From Verrucomicrobiales bacterium (GTDB lineage Bacteria > Verrucomicrobiota > Verrucomicrobiia > Verrucomicrobiales > DEV007): a stretch of 43,814 nt of DNA. The notes below the pieces were generated by a model. That model was not told the DNA's origin, did not search any database, and saw only the letters and a list, made by a program, of their open reading frames with translations. Shown piece by piece: positions 7,848 through 43,011 of the stretch. Each line of letters starts with the position of its first letter. Positions within the stretch are counted from its first letter, which is position 1. The DNA lies in assembly GCA_022361255.1 (NCBI GenBank), contig JAKSBG010000091.1, positions 1-43,814 on the forward strand. Reading direction: 5' to 3'. A program made the position numbers and the translations under genes.

Positions 7848-8432
7848 ATGAAATTCCGACTTCACCTGCTATTCTCCCTGCTTTTTCCGGTCTGCTTTTC
7901 CCCCGCGATCCAGGCAGCAGACTGGGATCCCGAAGACACCGATTTCGACCCTGCGATTGAGAGCGTCATCGTCCAGGGTTCCACCAGGATTGGAGATCCG
8001 ACCCCGTTCTTCAAAGAAGGATTCAATGTTCAGTCCTACACCCATATCGAAGCAAAAGCAGACGACAATCTCGGCGCAACGATCTGGTTCAGCCTGATCG
8101 TCCCATTCGTCCCCGGCCAGACCGGCCCTCAGGAAGGTGCGTTCCTCGTTCTCTCAGTCGATCAGGCGTCCGATCTCATCCGCTTTCTGGAAAAGGCCAT
8201 CCAAGCGCCGGAAAAGGAGAAATCCTTTGGTAAAATTTTTCAGGAAGGGAAAAACGAAATCTGGACCGTGAAAGTCGACCCGGGCGACGAATCCCTTCCT
8301 GTCGTTCTCGAGATGGAGGTAAACGAGGAAACCGATCGCTATCATTTCGGCATCAATCCCGCCACTAAACTCGTCGACACCCTGAAAAAAGTCTCGGCAC
8401 AGGCAAACGAGATTGCATCCGGCGGGCAATGA
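7848..8432 (+). CDS. Small exported protein of unknown function
   Basis: I do not recognise the family. The ORF track starts at 7551, but that extension is encoded by the REP-like repeats. The ATG at 7848 gives a 194-residue product with a normal signal peptide (MKFRLHLLFSLLFPVCFSPAIQA). The mature part has no cysteines or transmembrane helices. It looks like an all-beta lead (VIVQGSTRIGDPTPFFKEGF, then TIWFSLIVPFVPG) followed by a helix and a second beta region. The stop overlaps the uxuA start in ATGA, so the two are probably co-transcribed and translationally coupled. A periplasmic role is inferred from the signal peptide alone. Confidence 0.75.
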   Translation: MKFRLHLLFSLLFPVCFSPAIQAADWDPEDTDFDPAIESVIVQGSTRIGDPTPFFKEGFNVQSYTHIEAKADDNLGATIWFSLIVPFVPGQTGPQEGAFLVLSVDQASDLIRFLEKAIQAPEKEKSFGKIFQEGKNEIWTVKVDPGDESLPVVLEMEVNEETDRYHFGINPATKLVDTLKKVSAQANEIASGGQ

Positions 8433-9397
8433 AAATCGCCCTGCTCGTCACCCCCTTTTCCGACGAAAACCTCGCTCTCGCCGCTCAGGTCGGCGTCGAG
8501 GAAATTGTCGCTACCTGGCCCGGCCTTGATCCAGCAATCCTTGACGGGAACAGGCGCCGTGTCGAAGCGCACGGCATGAAACTCGGTGTGATCGAACGGT
8601 ATGTCCCCACTCTCGATTTCATTCACGGGACGGAGAACTGTCGACAGCAGACCGAAAATTTCAAAACCCTGCTTCGCAACATGGGCGAAGCCGAAGTCCC
8701 CGTCCTCTGCTACAGCTGGATGCCCAACGACGACTGGCAGCGAACGCGGCTCGACCTACCGGACCGCGGAGGCGCTCTCGTTACCGAGTTCGACATTCGA
8801 AATCCTGACAAAGCAATCAACGCAACCGGATTTAATTTCTCTCCCACTGACCCAACTCCCGCCTCAAAGCTCTGGGAAAATCTCGAACGTTTTCTTAACG
8901 AAGTCATTCCCGTAGCCGAAGATGCCGGTGTTCGCCTCGCGATGCATCCCGATGATCCTCCCATGGCAGAAGCATTCGGCCAACAGCGTATCATGCACAC
9001 TCCGGAAGCATTCGAGCGAATGGTGAAAATGGTCGACTCCCCAGCCAATGGAATCTGTCTTTGTCAGGGTTCTTTTGCCTCCTCCGCTGCAGAATACGAT
9101 ATCCCTGCCCTGATTCGGAGACTGGCTCCTCACATAGTCTTCGCGCACTTCCGCGACGTCACGGGGGCCGTCCCCCATTTTCAGGAAACCTTTCACGATC
9201 TGGGAAAAACTGACATGGCCGCCTGCATCCGGGCCTATCAGGATTGCTGTTCCAACATCCCCATTCGGCCCGACCATGTCCCCACTCTCCACGGGGAATC
9301 CAATAAACACCCGGGATACCACATGATGGGACGGCTCTGGGCAGTCGGATATATGCGGGGACTACTGGACGCAAGCACTTCCGCCAAACAGGGTTAG
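8429..9397 (+). CDS. uxuA: Probable D-mannonate dehydratase
   Basis: Mannonate dehydratase converts D-mannonate to 2-keto-3-deoxygluconate in hexuronate breakdown. The 322-residue product is a TIM-barrel protein with family motifs: LGVIERYVP near residue 55, LAMHPDDPP (His173) near 175, GICLCQGS near 210 (Cys212), FAHFRDV near 240 (His240) and RPDHVPTLHGE near 285. The Cys and His residues fit metal ligands of UxuA. It is shorter than the roughly 390-residue E. coli enzyme, but compact forms are common. No other uronate genes are nearby; the only partner is the upstream exported protein, coupled by an ATGA overlap. The C-terminal QG and stop codon are encoded by the first copy of the 22-bp phased repeat. 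Confidence 0.88.
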   Translation: MKIALLVTPFSDENLALAAQVGVEEIVATWPGLDPAILDGNRRRVEAHGMKLGVIERYVPTLDFIHGTENCRQQTENFKTLLRNMGEAEVPVLCYSWMPNDDWQRTRLDLPDRGGALVTEFDIRNPDKAINATGFNFSPTDPTPASKLWENLERFLNEVIPVAEDAGVRLAMHPDDPPMAEAFGQQRIMHTPEAFERMVKMVDSPANGICLCQGSFASSAAEYDIPALIRRLAPHIVFAHFRDVTGAVPHFQETFHDLGKTDMAACIRAYQDCCSNIPIRPDHVPTLHGESNKHPGYHMMGRLWAVGYMRGLLDASTSAKQG

Positions 9398-9439
9398 ATC
9401 GCGCCCTCAACAGGGTTGAGTGACCGAAGGAACAGGGTC
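9387..9439. repeat. 22-bp-phased CAGGGTT triplet, cluster A
   Basis: Three motif copies start at 9387 (AACAGGGTT), 9409 (AACAGGGTT) and 9431 (AACAGGGTC), exactly 22 bp apart; the spacers are unrelated in sequence. The second copy lies in a dyad, CTCAAC-AGG-GTTGAG (9406-9420). The cluster sits between the convergent genes uxuA and the 169-residue gene, and its first copy overlaps the uxuA stop codon. A further CAGGGT at 9473 is off the 22-bp phase. Same architecture as clusters B, C and D. Confidence 0.85.
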
Positions 9440-9471: not shown

Positions 9472-9981
9472 TCAGGGTGACCCCACCGGCGGGATATAAA
9501 CCGGCCTGAACTTACCGTGGGTCTTCACAATGGTAAACATAGCTGGACTCTCTCCATACTTCACAAACAGGTCTCCTTTTGTATTCGAGTAGTATTCGGC
9601 GGAGTAGATGCGTATGACCTCGTGCCCCTCTTGTGTCGGTGCGCCGAGACGAAGTTCCAGAAGAGAAACTCGATTCCCTCCCACAACTCCACGTTGCAAT
9701 TCCGCATCTGTGATGGTTCGGATTCCGCCATTGTTTCCCAAAGCATCCCACCACCCGAGCGGAATGTTCCTGGAAATCACGGCAATATCTCCGTCGATCC
9801 GGTAGATATCTTCGGGATGAAAGTGAATCCGCTCGATGAGTTCCCCGAGATCCCACAACACTTCGGCCCCTTCCGCTGCCGTGATTCGAATTCGCTTCTG
9901 CGATTTTTGATACTCATAAACCGCTCCCACTGCAACCAGAGCCATCAGCCCTACCGCCAGTGCGGGAAAGAGCCTTGTCAC
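9472..9981 (-). CDS. Small membrane-anchored protein of unknown function
   Basis: I do not recognise the family. The 169-residue product starts at GTG (9981), whose GTGA overlaps the stop of the DUF1501 gene, so it is the third gene of that reverse operon. The N-terminus [21 protein letters not shown] is a single membrane anchor, followed by a basic, charged segment ([11 protein letters not shown]). The rest is a soluble domain of about 140 residues with mixed alpha/beta character and Trp/Tyr/Gly-rich stretches ([36 protein letters not shown]). There are no cysteines. It probably faces the periplasm with the DUF1501 and DUF1553 partners, but no activity can be assigned. Confidence 0.75.
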
Positions 9982-17914: not shown

Positions 17915-18244
17915 TTACTGCACCTTCTTTACAAACTGTGCCTTCAGCCCGATCGCCATTCCGTCCATTTTACAGGAAATTTCATGATCCCCGTCGACGA
18001 GGCGGATCGGCTTGGATTTCATTCCGCTCTTTAACGTTTTGGAAGTGCCTTTTAATTTCAGATCTTTGACCATCTGGACGACATCCCCGTTCTCGAGCAC
18101 ATTTCCGTAGGCATCTTTCACGACCCGTTCCCCGGGCTGCTCCTCCTCTTTCTCCCATTCGTGACCACAGGTCATACACTCGAACTTCTCCGGAAACTCC
18201 AGAAGATCGTTCATGGTGCACATCGGGCAGGTTTGATCTGACAT
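17915..18244 (-). CDS. PhnA/YjdM family zinc-ribbon protein
   Basis: The 109-residue product matches the PhnA (YjdM) family: an N-terminal zinc ribbon with two CxxC knuckles (CPMC at residues 6-9 and CMTC at 23-26) followed by the C-terminal PhnA domain (VVKDAYGNVLENGDVVQMVKDLKLKGTS and ISCKMDGMAIGLKAQFVKKV). The family was named after the E. coli phosphonate locus, but it is not part of the C-P lyase, and its role is still unclear; no phosphonate genes are near here. The upstream region carries repeat cluster B and the tsf terminator, so it probably has its own promoter in that gap. Confidence 0.88.
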   Translation of the reverse strand: MSDQTCPMCTMNDLLEFPEKFECMTCGHEWEKEEEQPGERVVKDAYGNVLENGDVVQMVKDLKLKGTSKTLKSGMKSKPIRLVDGDHEISCKMDGMAIGLKAQFVKKVQ

Positions 18245-18298: not shown

Positions 18299-18351
18299 AA
18301 CAGGGTTCGGTCATTCAGTCAACCCTGTTGAACCGGTCTCGATACCCTGTC
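18299..18351. repeat. 22-bp-phased CAGGGTT triplet, cluster B
   Basis: Three motif copies start at 18299 (AACAGGGTT), 18321 (AACCCTGTT, inverted) and 18343 (TACCCTGTC, inverted), again exactly 22 bp apart. The first two form a perfect 12-bp inverted repeat, TTCAACAGGGTT (18296-18307) with AACCCTGTTGAA (18321-18332), separated by 13 bp. The cluster lies between the tsf terminator and the start of the PhnA-like gene, inside that gene's likely 5' region. Mixed orientation shows that phase, not direction, is what is conserved. Confidence 0.85.
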
Positions 18352-18429: not shown

Positions 18430-19323
18430 TTACGCTTCCTCTTCAACGAGCTCTCCGAGGCCGTAACGCTCGAAGCGGGAGATCGCGATTTCATCGCCGG
18501 TCTCTTTCGCCACTTCGGCGACGAGATCTTTGATGCTCTTGTCTCCGTCTTTGATGAAAGGCTGCTCGAGAAGGCAGTTCGTGCTGTAGAATTTGCCCAT
18601 CTTGCCGTCGATGATCTTTTCAATGATCTCGGCAGGCTTGTCTTTCATCTGCTCACGGAAAATGTCTTTCTCCTTTTCAACGAGGTCAGCAGGCACCCCA
18701 TCGCGATCGATGCAGATCGGCTGAGACGCTGCGATGTGAAGAGTGAGATCCTTCACGAACGACTGGAAAGCATCGTTGGAAGTGGTTGCGGCATTTCCGC
18801 AGGTCACTTCGGCGAGAACACCAACCCGGCCCTGCATGTGAATGTAGGTCGCTTCCACGCCTTCCCCATCGAGCTCGAATTTGGCAAAACGGCTGAGACC
18901 CATGTTCTCGCCGAGTTCACCGATTTTCGCTTTGATGAATTCCTCGAGCGTCGCGGCATCTCCGGAGAAATCCTGAGCCAGAAGCGCTTCGAGACTGTCT
19001 ACCGAGTCGCTGCTTTCGACGTGATCGAGAATCTCGTTCACGAAGCTGGTGAAGTTTTCGTTCTTTGCGACGAAGTCGGTTTCGCAGTTCACTTCTACGA
19101 GAATACCGGTCTTGCCGTCTTCGCTGATCCGGGAAGCAACAACGCCCTCTTTGGCTGCGCGTCCGGCTTTCTTGTCCGCATCGGCGATTCCTTTTTTGCG
19201 GAGAATGGTTTCGGCTTCCTCCAGATCACCACCTGCTTCGGCGAGGGCTGCCTTGCAGTCCATCATTCCGGCGTTGGTTTTATCGCGAAGGGTTTTAATC
19301 AGTTCTACTGTGATTTCGGCCAT
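18430..19323 (-). CDS. tsf: Elongation factor Ts
   Basis: EF-Ts is the nucleotide exchange factor that reloads EF-Tu with GTP. The 297-residue product has the family start LIKTLRDKTNAGMMDCKAALAEAGGDLEEAETILRKKG (UBA-like domain), then GILVEVNCETDFVAKNENF, the core contact region with EF-Tu, and the repeated core subdomains including YIHMQGRVGVLAEVTC. The C-terminal FIKDGDKSIKDLVAEVAKETGDEI is normal. It follows rpsB after 128 bp, the near-universal order, and is closed by a strong terminator. Its partner gene tuf lies in the same window at 32352. Confidence 0.97.
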   Translation of the reverse strand: MAEITVELIKTLRDKTNAGMMDCKAALAEAGGDLEEAETILRKKGIADADKKAGRAAKEGVVASRISEDGKTGILVEVNCETDFVAKNENFTSFVNEILDHVESSDSVDSLEALLAQDFSGDAATLEEFIKAKIGELGENMGLSRFAKFELDGEGVEATYIHMQGRVGVLAEVTCGNAATTSNDAFQSFVKDLTLHIAASQPICIDRDGVPADLVEKEKDIFREQMKDKPAEIIEKIIDGKMGKFYSTNCLLEQPFIKDGDKSIKDLVAEVAKETGDEIAISRFERYGLGELVEEEA

Positions 19324-30670: not shown

Positions 30671-31096
30671 TTAATCAACGATCTCCAGACCCATCTGGCG
30701 CGCCGTCCCTGCGAGAATGCGACATGCCATTTCAGGATCGTCCGTATTGAGGTCATCCATTTTCACCTCAGCAACTTCAAGAAGCTTGGCCCGACTCAGC
30801 GTTCCGACCTTCACCTTATGGGGCTCACCGGAACCGGAGGCAATGTTCGCCGCCTTCTTGAGAAGAACCGCTGCAGGTGGCTTCTTCGTTACGAACGAGA
30901 AACTCTTGTCCGCGTAGACACTGATCACAACAGGAAGAAGATCCCCGGCGTTTTGCTGCGTCTGAGCGTTAAACTCTTTGCAGAATTCCATGATATTCAG
31001 CCCGGCTTGTCCAAGAGCCGGACCGACAGGGGGAGACGGGTTTGCCCCACCTGCGGGAATCTGCAGTTTCAGTTGTTGTACCACTTCTTTAGCCAT
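30671..31096 (-). CDS. rplK: 50S ribosomal protein L11
   Basis: L11 is part of the GTPase-associated centre and is needed for stringent-response signalling by RelA. The 141-residue product has [20 protein letters not shown] and [17 protein letters not shown], the thiostrepton-region prolines, and the C-terminal RNA-binding domain [20 protein letters not shown]. Its start at 31096 is preceded by a 117-bp gap to nusG that holds repeat cluster C, so a regulatory site or promoter for rplKA could lie there. Confidence 0.97.
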
Positions 31097-31148: not shown

Positions 31149-31201
31149 AACAGGGTTGAATCAGTAACCTGACAGGGTCAATTTACCACCCCGACAGGGT
31201 T
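31149..31201. repeat. 22-bp-phased CAGGGTT triplet, cluster C
   Basis: Three motif copies start at 31149 (AACAGGGTT), 31171 (GACAGGGTC) and 31193 (GACAGGGTT), all in the same orientation and exactly 22 bp apart, with unrelated spacers. They fill the gap between nusG and rplK. They read antisense to the operon transcript, in which they appear as RACCCTGTY. Confidence 0.87.
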
Positions 31202-31213
31202 ACTCCATTTTCT

Positions 31214-31783
31214 TCAGCCATTTTCCACCTGCCAGTATTCGAGAGGAACGAGAGTTTCCCGTCCAAAGATATTTACGGACACCATAAGCTCGCCCTTGTC
31301 TTCGTTGACCTCGGCGATGATTCCAGTCTGACCCTGGAACGGTCCGTCAGATACGACCACGGTATCACCAATTTCGTAAGCCACCGCCGGCATGACACTG
31401 CCTTCACGCTCTTTGATCTGAGCAAGCATGCCCTCGACCTCGTGCATCGGCATTGGCATCGGGTGGTCCTTGGTTCCTGCAAAATTAATTACCCCGTCTG
31501 TCTCCTGGATGAAATACCAGGTCTTATCAACGAGAGTGTTATCATCGTGCAGCAGGTGCATATTGATGATGATATAACCGGGAAAGAACTTCCGGTTCGC
31601 TTCACGCTTTTGCCCCGCCTTCACCTCGGAGACACGCTCCTGGGGAACGAGGACTTCGAAAATCACATCAGACGCCTCTTCGGCCTCGATACGACGCTCA
31701 ATGCTGTCGCGCACCTTCAACTCCTGCCCGGAGAGAACATGAACCACATACCACTGATCGTTGGGTGCGGGGATGGTTGGCAT
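31214..31783 (-). CDS. nusG: Transcription termination/antitermination factor NusG
   Basis: NusG binds elongating RNA polymerase and couples it to Rho or to the ribosome. I choose ATG 31783 (MPTIPAPNDQWYVVHVLSGQELKVRD), 189 residues; the track's longer start adds 17 residues of non-family sequence. The NGN domain has FEVLVPQERVSEVKAGQKREANRKFFPGYIIINM. The C-terminal KOW domain reads YEIGDTVVVSDGPFQGQTGIIAEVNEDKGELMVSV. It follows secE after 47 bp, the standard pair. Confidence 0.95.
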   Translation of the reverse strand: MPTIPAPNDQWYVVHVLSGQELKVRDSIERRIEAEEASDVIFEVLVPQERVSEVKAGQKREANRKFFPGYIIINMHLLHDDNTLVDKTWYFIQETDGVINFAGTKDHPMPMPMHEVEGMLAQIKEREGSVMPAVAYEIGDTVVVSDGPFQGQTGIIAEVNEDKGELMVSVNIFGRETLVPLEYWQVENG

Positions 31784-32100: not shown

Positions 32101-32176
32101 TGGCAGGGCAGCCGAGACTCGAACTCGGAACCAACGGTTTTGGAGACCGCTACTCTACCAATTGAGCTACTACCCT
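32101..32176 (-). tRNA. tRNA-Trp (anticodon CCA)
   Basis: The 76-nt gene reads AGGGTAGTAGCTCAATTGGT from its 5' end. The acceptor stem AGGGTAG pairs with CTGCCCT (one G-T pair), the anticodon stem-loop is GCGGT-CTCCAAA-ACCGT with anticodon CCA, the T arm has GTTCGAGTC, and the 3' CCA is encoded after discriminator G. It lies between tuf and secE, the position of trpT-type tRNAs in many bacteria. Confidence 0.97.
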
Positions 32177-33672: not shown

Positions 33673-33747
<75 letters not shown>

Positions 33748-40697: not shown

Positions 40698-41399
40698 TCA
40701 CCTCACCCGGAATGTCATCCTGCCCGGACGATTGAGAAAAGCCTCCATCGCAGCGATTTCCGCTTCTGTGAAATCGCCGGTAATGGAAGCCCCGGTCGAG
40801 AACGGCTCGCGAACTACCGGAGCCGAAATCACCTCTTCTCCGACAATGATTGCGATGCGCTCATTTACGAGTCGCTTGGTAAACTTCCCCATTTCGTCCG
40901 CCGCCTCCGGCGTAAAATTCACGGAAAGGGCCCAGCCACCAGCTCCGGAAAACCGTTCTGCTGAGGCAATCGCGCGCTCATCGAAATACGGATCCTTCTC
41001 AACCAGGATGGAACTCTGCGATGGATCGCGGAAACCCATCCAGTGCCAACCTTCGGGAATATCGGCGCTCTCCGGATCAAACGTAGCGGACTCGCGGTGA
41101 ACTTCCGCAAAAATCACTCCGCCGCTTTCTCTGCAATTCGACAAGAACAATTTTGCGTCCTCCACGCGAGTCGCGGGGACTTCAGCAGAGAGAAGGGTCG
41201 GCGTCGTAAAACGAATCTTCACGTTGCGCTCCGGAACACTCAAATTCGCAGAGAGTGATTCGTGGAACCAGCTCACGATCTCCTCCTGCTCCGCTCCATT
41301 TGCATCGATTTCGATGTCAAACCCTGCGAGCGGAACCAACGGCCCCTTTGAGCAACCAACAAGGAGCAGCAGGATCGAAAAAATCCCGGCCCACCTCAT
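40698..41399 (-). CDS. Lipoprotein with a SecD P1-like domain
   Basis: The 233-residue product has a lipoprotein signal (MRWAGIFSILLLLVGC, lipobox LVGC, Cys16), so it should be lipid-anchored outside the inner membrane. The C-terminal part resembles the periplasmic P1 head and base of SecD: LSVNFTPEAADEMGKFTKRL, then IAIIVGEEVISAPVVREPF and ASITGDFTEAEIAAMEAFLN. In SecD this region helps pull exported proteins across, but here the SecD/SecF membrane helices are absent. The N-terminal half (FDIEIDANGAEQEEIVSWF) is unassigned. The stop overlaps no gene; its start overlaps the thrH stop by 4 bp (thrH lies upstream), so the two are coupled. Confidence 0.82.
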   Translation of the reverse strand: MRWAGIFSILLLLVGCSKGPLVPLAGFDIEIDANGAEQEEIVSWFHESLSANLSVPERNVKIRFTTPTLLSAEVPATRVEDAKLFLSNCRESGGVIFAEVHRESATFDPESADIPEGWHWMGFRDPSQSSILVEKDPYFDERAIASAERFSGAGGWALSVNFTPEAADEMGKFTKRLVNERIAIIVGEEVISAPVVREPFSTGASITGDFTEAEIAAMEAFLNRPGRMTFRVR

Positions 41400-42007
41400 C
41401 CCAGATCCTCCCGGGCCTGAAGAAATTCGTTTTTCAAAGCGGCATAATCTGTCGCCACCGGAAACTGCGGGAATTCGTCGATTACGTTCTGCGGCGGGCA
41501 GAAGAGGATGCCACGATCCGCCTCTCCCAGCATCGTTGTGTCGTTGTAGGAATCACCGGCCGCAATAACCTGGAAGTTCAGCTCGTGAAACCGCTTCACC
41601 GCTTCCCGTTTCTGATCCGGCATGCGGAGACGGTACTCATTCACATTCCCCTCTTCATCAATTCCCAGCTTATGGCAAAAGAGCGTCGGGAAATCGAGCT
41701 GACGCATCAATGGCTTCGCAAATTCGTAGAAGGTGTCGGATAAAATGATGACCTGAAATTCCGACTTCAACCAGTCGAGGAAATCCTTCGCTCCATCGAG
41801 CGGGCCGAGACTGTCGATGACCTCCTCGATGTCCTGTATCTTCAAATTGTTCTCTTTCAAAATACGGAGGCGCTGCGTCATCAGCACGTCGTAATCCGGA
41901 ATGTCACGCGTCGTAGCGAGCAATTCATCGATGCCCGTTTTCTGGGCAAAGTTAATCCAGATTTCCGGGATGAGGACTCCTTCGAGGTCGAGACAGGCGA
42001 GTTGCAC
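41396..42007 (-). CDS. thrH: Phosphoserine phosphatase / homoserine phosphotransferase (ThrH)
   Basis: ThrH is a HAD-superfamily enzyme that dephosphorylates phosphoserine and can transfer the phosphate to homoserine. I choose GTG 42007 (VQLACLDLEGVLIPEIWI), 203 residues, the usual ThrH length; the track's ATG start at 42103 adds 32 non-family residues and crosses repeat cluster D. HAD motif I is DLEG (Asp7, Glu9), with the ThrH hallmark TTRDIPDYDVLMTQRLRIL next. Motif II is VIILSDTF, motif III includes Lys in the PDQKREAVKRF segment, and motif IV is AAGDSYNDTTMLGEAD. It precedes the SecD-like lipoprotein gene with a 4-bp overlap. Confidence 0.93.
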   Translation of the reverse strand: MQLACLDLEGVLIPEIWINFAQKTGIDELLATTRDIPDYDVLMTQRLRILKENNLKIQDIEEVIDSLGPLDGAKDFLDWLKSEFQVIILSDTFYEFAKPLMRQLDFPTLFCHKLGIDEEGNVNEYRLRMPDQKREAVKRFHELNFQVIAAGDSYNDTTMLGEADRGILFCPPQNVIDEFPQFPVATDYAALKNEFLQAREDLG

Positions 42008-42083: not shown

Positions 42084-42136
42084 AACCCTGTCCACTCCGC
42101 CACGGTACCCTGTTGAGCCCTGAACTGAACCCTCTT
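42084..42136. repeat. 22-bp-phased CAGGGTT triplet, cluster D
   Basis: Read on the plus strand as the complement, the copies start at 42084 (AACCCTGTC), 42106 (TACCCTGTT) and 42128 (AACCCTCTT, one mismatch), 22 bp apart. The cluster lies in the 257-bp divergent gap between thrH and kdsB, where promoters for both genes should be. All three copies point the same way, as RACAGGGTY on the minus strand. Confidence 0.8.
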
Positions 42137-42264: not shown

Positions 42265-43011
42265 ATGTCCACCGATTCCCCCAAAGTCCTCGGAGTGATC
42301 CCGGCCCGCTGGGGCTCCACTCGCTTTCCCGGCAAGCCGCTCCACCCCATTGCGGACAAGCCGCTGATACAACATGTCTGGGACCGCTGCCTCGGCTGCA
42401 AAAATCTGGCGCACCTCACCGTCGCAACGGACGATGAACGGATCGCCGATGCCGTTCGCGAATTCGGAGGCCACGTCACGATGACGCGGGACGATCACCC
42501 GTCCGGAACAGATCGTGCAGCAGAAGTCGCCGAAGCCTTTCCGGAAATGAGTCACATCATTAACATCCAGGGCGATGAGCCTCTCATTGATACCGGCCTC
42601 ATTGATCGCCTCGCCGGAGACCTTCTCGCCCAACCCGGTCTGCCAATGATCACTGCAGCGAACCCGCTCCTTCCCGATCACCCCGACCTCGCTGACCCGA
42701 ACGTCGTCAAGGTCACCATCGATGCCAACGGGAACGCACTCTATTTCTCCCGCAGCGTCATTCCGCACCCGCGAAATGTACCGGAAGGCCTTATGTATTT
42801 TCGGCACAAAGGTATCTATGGTTTTCGTCGCGATTTCCTTTTCGACTTCGTCAATTGGGAACCCTCCCTACTCGAGCGGACCGAAGGCCTCGAACAACTC
42901 CGGGCGCTCGAAAATGGTGGGCGAATCCGTGTGGTTTTAACCGATGATGAGTCGCCCGGCGTTGACACGCCCGAGCAGGCAGCGATACTCGACCAACAGT
43001 TGCGCACATGA
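42265..43011 (+). CDS. kdsB: 3-deoxy-manno-octulosonate cytidylyltransferase (CMP-Kdo synthetase)
   Basis: KdsB activates Kdo with CTP for the inner core of lipopolysaccharide. I choose ATG 42265 ([29 protein letters not shown]), 248 residues, rather than the track's 42226. Family motifs: nucleotide-binding [15 protein letters not shown] near residue 11, [35 protein letters not shown], the metal-binding [10 protein letters not shown], and [15 protein letters not shown] followed by [19 protein letters not shown] near the C-terminus. This implies an LPS-bearing outer membrane. Its stop overlaps the pyrG start (ATGA); the CTP-consuming and CTP-making enzymes are thus coupled, as in many genomes. 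Confidence 0.96.

Follow-up and report, generated by a model that had tools for sequence, protein, structure and literature searches.

Phased triplets of a 9-bp motif, spread evenly along a Verrucomicrobiales genome, as candidate docking sites of a chromosome-organising protein

The stretch of DNA analysed here, referred to as the window, is 43,814 nt long (contig JAKSBG010000091.1, positions 1 to 43,814 of the forward strand, assembly GCA_022361255.1) and belongs to the MAG of an uncultured Verrucomicrobiales bacterium (Verrucomicrobiota; DEV007), hereafter G000, whose draft comprises 5,851,474 bases (5.85 Mb) in 548 contigs. It holds four elements, each composed of three copies of a short motif that follow one another at steps of exactly 22 bp; an earlier note on this DNA had reported them, and all four are present. 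The type example (element 3, 31149..31201; units at 31149, 31171 and 31193, all forward) is situated between nusG (31214-31783, minus strand) and rplK (30671-31096, minus strand). Element 1 (9387..9439; units at 9387, 9409 and 9431, all forward; PWM score 52.9) occupies a convergent gap between genes at 8429-9397 (+) and 9472-9981 (-), and its first unit (window 9387-9397) overlaps the end of the upstream gene, where AACAGGGTTAG gives the TAG stop. Stop codons are also overlapped by, or found at the start of, other elements. Element 2 (18299..18351; units at 18299, 18321 and 18343) lies between tsf (18430-19323, -) and a small zinc-ribbon-like gene (17915-18244, -), just past a terminator-like hairpin 3' of tsf; its first unit is forward, and the second and third are inverted (AACCCTGTT, TACCCTGTC). 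All three copies are inverted in element 4 (42084..42136; units at 42084, 42106 and 42128), which reads AACCCTGTC, TACCCTGTT and AACCCTCTT, with one mismatch each in the second and third, and which is located in the divergent gap separating a phosphotransferase-like gene (41396-42007, -) from kdsB (42265-43011, +). The consensus RACAGGGTY given in the earlier note thus describes 9-mers that are really there, but it missed that their orientation is free, as the inverted copies in the elements at 18299 and 42084 demonstrate. As a control for the weight matrix, reversed sequence never scores above 6. Elsewhere in the window, tuf is flanked by two tRNA genes (32104-32176 and 33676-33747, -).

The scan of the whole genome and of relatives that the earlier note had proposed detected 419 triplets in G000 (three-unit pattern, either core orientation, at most three mismatches), whereas the reversed, uncomplemented control pattern gave 0 matches in the same genome-wide scan. 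The 9-mer RAC(AGG/CCT)GTY occurs 112 times in the 557,511 fetched bases of this genome. Every pair of copies 9-120 bp apart is found at a lag of 22 (61 pairs), 44 (27) or 66 (1), and the 17 partnerless copies compare with about 18 expected from base composition. The 9-mer therefore exists as a word only in phased arrays, and the assertion that the 22-bp intervals cannot be due to chance is borne out. Exactly three units, with sharp ends, are present in 45 of the 48 weight-matrix-scored elements of G000, and no trace of a further unit was seen at the preceding or following 22-bp phase of these elements. The statement that there are always three copies consequently describes this genome well, but not its relatives, in which arrays consist of 2, 3 or 4-5 units. 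A single five-unit array was seen in G000 (contig C82, near 30450; L015/L041); its 13-bp spacers are identical copies, and it is a recent tandem expansion. The statistics for G000 rest on 558-700 kb of fetched contigs together with genome-wide pattern counts; the genomes are drafts, and genes were called with a home-made, codon-based caller.

In the aligned elements conservation spans about 61 bp, and the flanks outside carry zero information. Each unit is a near-palindrome of about 17 bp, GACYnRAC[AGG/CCT]GTYnRGTC, and the three units are placed 22 bp apart from centre to centre. The core 9-mer is near-invariant while spacers and flanks have diverged; still, the 13-bp spacers are not unconserved, as had been supposed, but carry the semi-conserved pattern nRGTCnnnGACYn, and spacers close to the consensus GAGTCGATGACCC are in mild excess among the elements of G000. 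The arms ACC..GGT are symmetric around each core, so that asymmetry is limited to the three central bases (AGG/CCT). The unit may also be read as a pair of half-sites that differ from each other, RACCC and RACAG, flanked by the outer arms ACC/GGT. All combinations of orientation across the three units occur in G000 at similar frequency. Covariation between the arms was not observed, pairing being at the level expected from column composition at every arm position tested, a result that favours recognition of double-stranded DNA by a protein over a hairpin in RNA or a cruciform. None of the palindromic arms, the spacer consensus, the orientation rule, or the even spacing, convergent bias and variation within the genus described below had figured in the earlier note.

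On the fetched contigs of G000, 29 of 37 candidate elements are located in gaps between genes, although only 11% of the sequence is non-coding (coding fraction 0.887). The wording of the earlier note, always at or between genes, is mostly correct; the remaining eight elements were called inside genes, and they include some weak or overlapping matches. Convergent gaps hold 11 of the 29 gap elements and make up 34 of the 239 sufficiently long gaps (Fisher p = 0.0006), divergent gaps hold 4 of the 29, and in codirectional gaps the elements tend toward the stop codon of the upstream gene.

The elements are spread more evenly than chance would allow and keep a distance from one another. Neighbouring elements in G000 are on average 10.0 kb apart (29 distances), the closest two being separated by 3.2 kb; no distance is below 3 kb, against 6.7 expected, and the coefficient of variation is 0.48 compared with 0.79 for random placement (p = 0.0005). 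In this null model the same numbers of elements were put at random into the gaps of the same contigs; the contigs were picked partly because they hold elements, and the spacing tests are conditional on the numbers per contig.

Among 57 genomes searched with the 22-bp triplet pattern, matches are confined to the genus of the window, at 0 to 129 per relative; none occurred in 387 further genomes drawn across the phylum. The named relatives that carry the same motif are mostly Verrucomicrobiales MAGs, and arrays of two units, with a step of exactly 22 bp, are present in many further species of the genus. Exact triplets were also encountered on two contigs binned as Chloroflexi and Saprospiraceae (L071, JAHDEN010000021.1, and L116, JAHDBO010000091.1), which share the RZ assembly series with Verrucomicrobia MAG-135; these contigs may be mis-binned, and the triplet would then mark such contigs.

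One species of the genus, G030, has no 22-bp triplet. It carries a sister family, TTGTACCCTATTGAAT, repeated in tandem at exactly 21 bp, with 437 pairs genome-wide, all those seen being in the same orientation; outside G030 only stray matches appear, in a few other species. The two families have the core ACCCTRT in common. The G030 motif was seen across contig C79 (L190-L208; e.g., L194:5256), with a five-base linker that is mostly NAAAA; identical 12-bp spacers recur in this genome, and the orientation of its arrays is unrelated to transcription. Here too the elements keep apart: 21 elements on the 375 kb of C79 that were read have a coefficient of variation of 0.46 against 0.89 (p about 0.001), the closest two being 5.8 kb apart. 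For exact matches on other contigs bearing three or more of them, 12.4 of 49 distances were expected to fall below 7 kb and a single one did, an outcome as extreme being reached in 0 of 20,000 simulations. The same regularity is hence present in two species that use different motifs. Arrays resemble others of the same genome far more than they do the arrays found at the corresponding position in other species, a pattern that would fit a protein that changed its specificity and took its sites along.

Comparison of individual positions between species indicates that arrays have been both retained and gained. Between nusG and rplK the triplet is complete in G000 and G009; G012 and G005 show two degenerate units there, G026 and G028 a single one, and G030 three 21-bp-phased units of the TACCCTATT type. 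In the gap 3' of frr, three units are found in G000, G002 and G024, two in G006, G012 and G026, and four in G004, with degenerate copies in G028 and probably G007, such that 8 or more species have an array there; it is absent in the remaining species, several of which have almost no gap. In G015 (L364) this gap is without an array and a two-unit 22-bp array is located inside the following reading frame, and in G031 (L366) at least one unit is found in the start of the gene after frr. G000 has three units at locus L055:8063, where G026 and G028 have two and G012 and G006 four; two units are present at L055:14419 in G026, and two-unit arrays 3' of tsf in G026, G033 and G001. Where cores persist in this way, the spacers cannot be aligned between species. 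Conversely, the elements at L044:7384, L044:15939 and kdsB exist in G000 only. The first two correspond to empty sites in the relatives compared; L044:15939 has about 13 bp in G002 against 90 in G000, which looks like a gain of roughly 75-90 bp. At the kdsB gap none of the other species examined carries an array, and a single AACCCTCT-like copy is present in a few of them. Between G000 and the distant MAG-135, nusG-rplK is the sole common position in the subset compared, from which it follows that most positions turn over at that distance.

We propose, with a probability of roughly one half, that the triplets are docking sites of a sequence-specific, putatively chromosome-organising DNA-binding protein of this genus. 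The suggestion of the earlier note, that a protein contacts the sites from one face of the helix, fits the data best, given near-invariant cores, diverged spacers and a phase locked at about two helical turns; free unit orientation, the lack of arm covariation, and even spacing kept with a 21-bp phase in G030 fit as well. Arrays persisting at the same locus with diverged spacers (frr, L055:8063, nusG-rplK and the 3' side of tsf) likewise favour docking. Dimers or tetramers of one protein would bind the three units cooperatively, and purifying selection for binding would keep the cores. Judging from their distribution, the roughly 420 complexes, one about every 10-14 kb, might act as regularly spaced architectural anchors, i.e., as boundaries of loops or topological domains or as segregation anchors, and not as gene-by-gene operators. 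The specificity and phase of the protein would have changed from one species to another, most having 22 bp and G030 having 21 bp and another motif, with all sites of a genome shifting along with the protein. Three observations sit less well with this proposal: some elements are lineage-specific gains (L044:7384 and 15939), element numbers vary widely among species, which is odd for an essential architectural system, and a simple symmetric dimer does not account for the strictly asymmetric AGG/CCT centre that the symmetric arms enclose.

The other interpretation in the earlier note, a small mobile repeat, finds little support. Formulated more fully, the triplets would be short non-autonomous mobile or multiplying repeats, akin to REPs or MITEs, that a mechanism resembling target immunity keeps from inserting near one another and that are tolerated chiefly at the 3' ends of genes. 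In its favour, two tested elements do look like gains of G000, for which no relative with data has a counterpart; copy numbers are very different from one species to another, the bias toward convergent gaps and 3' ends is like that of REPs, and identical 12-bp spacers recur in G030. On the other hand, neither target-site duplications nor terminal inverted repeats, the hallmarks of MITEs and insertion elements, were found, and flank matches (k = 3-9) do not exceed those of shuffled flanks. The only near-identical elements form one local tandem; leaving it out, the best pair agrees at 20 of 26 spacer bases, within the shuffled range, and the excess of similar spacers is only mild. Cores are conserved where spacers and flanks are not, several loci are common to species, and no triplet occurs in the viral contigs scanned. 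The elements resemble the RAYT-associated REP, BIME and REPIN families in being small, palindromic, extragenic, biased toward gene 3' ends and present in hundreds of copies, but differ in their strict 22-bp triplets and in the conservation of some positions, and compensatory changes of a stem-loop were not found. REP and BIME elements are recognised by a GTAG or CGTC tag at the foot of the stem-loop, and GTAG-tagged families occur in Verrucomicrobia (PMC3733652); neither tag has this role in our consensus, nothing being conserved outside the 61-bp element. Because of the common positions and the missing marks of insertion, we regard a mobile repeat as unlikely, even though gains do occur, and the interpretation of the earlier note is supported in part, as regards the one-face protein and hardly as regards mobility.

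It is just as doubtful that the elements are operators of a global transcription regulator controlling hundreds of genes. Multi-unit, phased near-palindromes are typical of operator architecture, and some elements do stand upstream of genes (42084 before kdsB, in a divergent gap; 31149 before rplK). However, instead of concentrating upstream of genes they are enriched in convergent gaps, which normally lack promoters, with few in divergent ones, and array orientation in G030 ignores transcription; regular chromosomal spacing would not be expected of a regulon either. It is the convergent gaps and the even spacing that make this explanation less likely.

An element acting in RNA (a terminator, 3' stabiliser or attenuator, forming hairpins in transcripts) appears very improbable. 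Every unit could be drawn as a small hairpin whose loop has 3 nt, and elements often follow stop codons, but arm pairing is no more frequent than column composition predicts, units are oriented at random in G000 and without relation to transcription in G030, and convergent and divergent gaps alike contain elements. Rfam gave no match at any element, the two tRNAs being its only hits in the window. About equally improbable is a dispersed DNA uptake or recombination sequence (DUS- or Chi-like). Even spread, intergenic position, restriction to the genus and concerted evolution within a genome would suit it, but known uptake sequences are single short words, one in roughly every kilobase, and words of the Chi type are likewise single and have a strand bias, whereas the 9-mer described here is found singly no more often than by chance and exists only in the form of phased arrays.

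No membership in any known family is claimed, and a literature search by motif string and by layout returned nothing relevant. The earlier note was right to set CRISPR aside: in place of repeats of about 24-40 bp that alternate with unique spacers of comparable length in the vicinity of cas genes, there are 9-bp cores (17-bp units), semi-conserved 13-bp spacers and about 420 dispersed arrays. The sites recognised by MatP (matS), Noc and SlmA are short palindromes distributed over much of the chromosome, bound by a dimeric protein and involved in the control of chromosome or division, but each of them stands alone, a genome has some tens of them, and they are either restricted to the terminus or kept out of it, as opposed to about 420 phased triplets here. 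The GAC-N3-GTC halves of matS are a superficial resemblance to our unit. Plasmid iterons have units of about 17-22 bp at about two helical turns on which initiator proteins stack on one face; they belong to one origin and have one orientation, unlike the triplets, which occur throughout the chromosome and whose units are mixed in orientation. Hundreds of chromosome-wide sites with an intergenic preference are what characterises the sites of nucleoid-associated proteins, and the triplets have both features. As working analogues, such proteins, for example CdbA and GapR, come closest, together with iteron-like stacking. CdbA of Myxococcus xanthus has more than 500 sites with a direct-repeat consensus and is probably a tetramer, and GapR of Caulobacter occupies about 600 regions (PMC7156744). 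Both are described there as having hundreds of sites, an intergenic preference and little effect on neighbouring genes; as far as that description goes, the triplets differ by their exact three-unit arrays, fixed 22-bp phase and minimum distance (PMC7156744).

A more tentative possibility, which we think somewhat less probable than docking as such, is an undescribed system in which about 400 evenly spaced triplet complexes would divide the chromosome into units of about 10-15 kb, by means of a species-specific code (22 or 21 bp) with some positions kept. On the current view, a bacterial chromosome consists of supercoiled units some ten kilobases in size, but to our knowledge sequence-defined, evenly spaced boundary sites are not known. 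Here the sites can be read straight from the sequence, with an exact copy number, phase and minimum distance, and in two species with different motifs. If the triplets are architectural anchors, the genus would offer a way to test what sets domain size, as well as a natural experiment in which one DNA-binding protein has co-evolved with hundreds of sites; should they instead prove to be a family of repeats, a mechanism would still be required for the strict triplet and for the distance rule.
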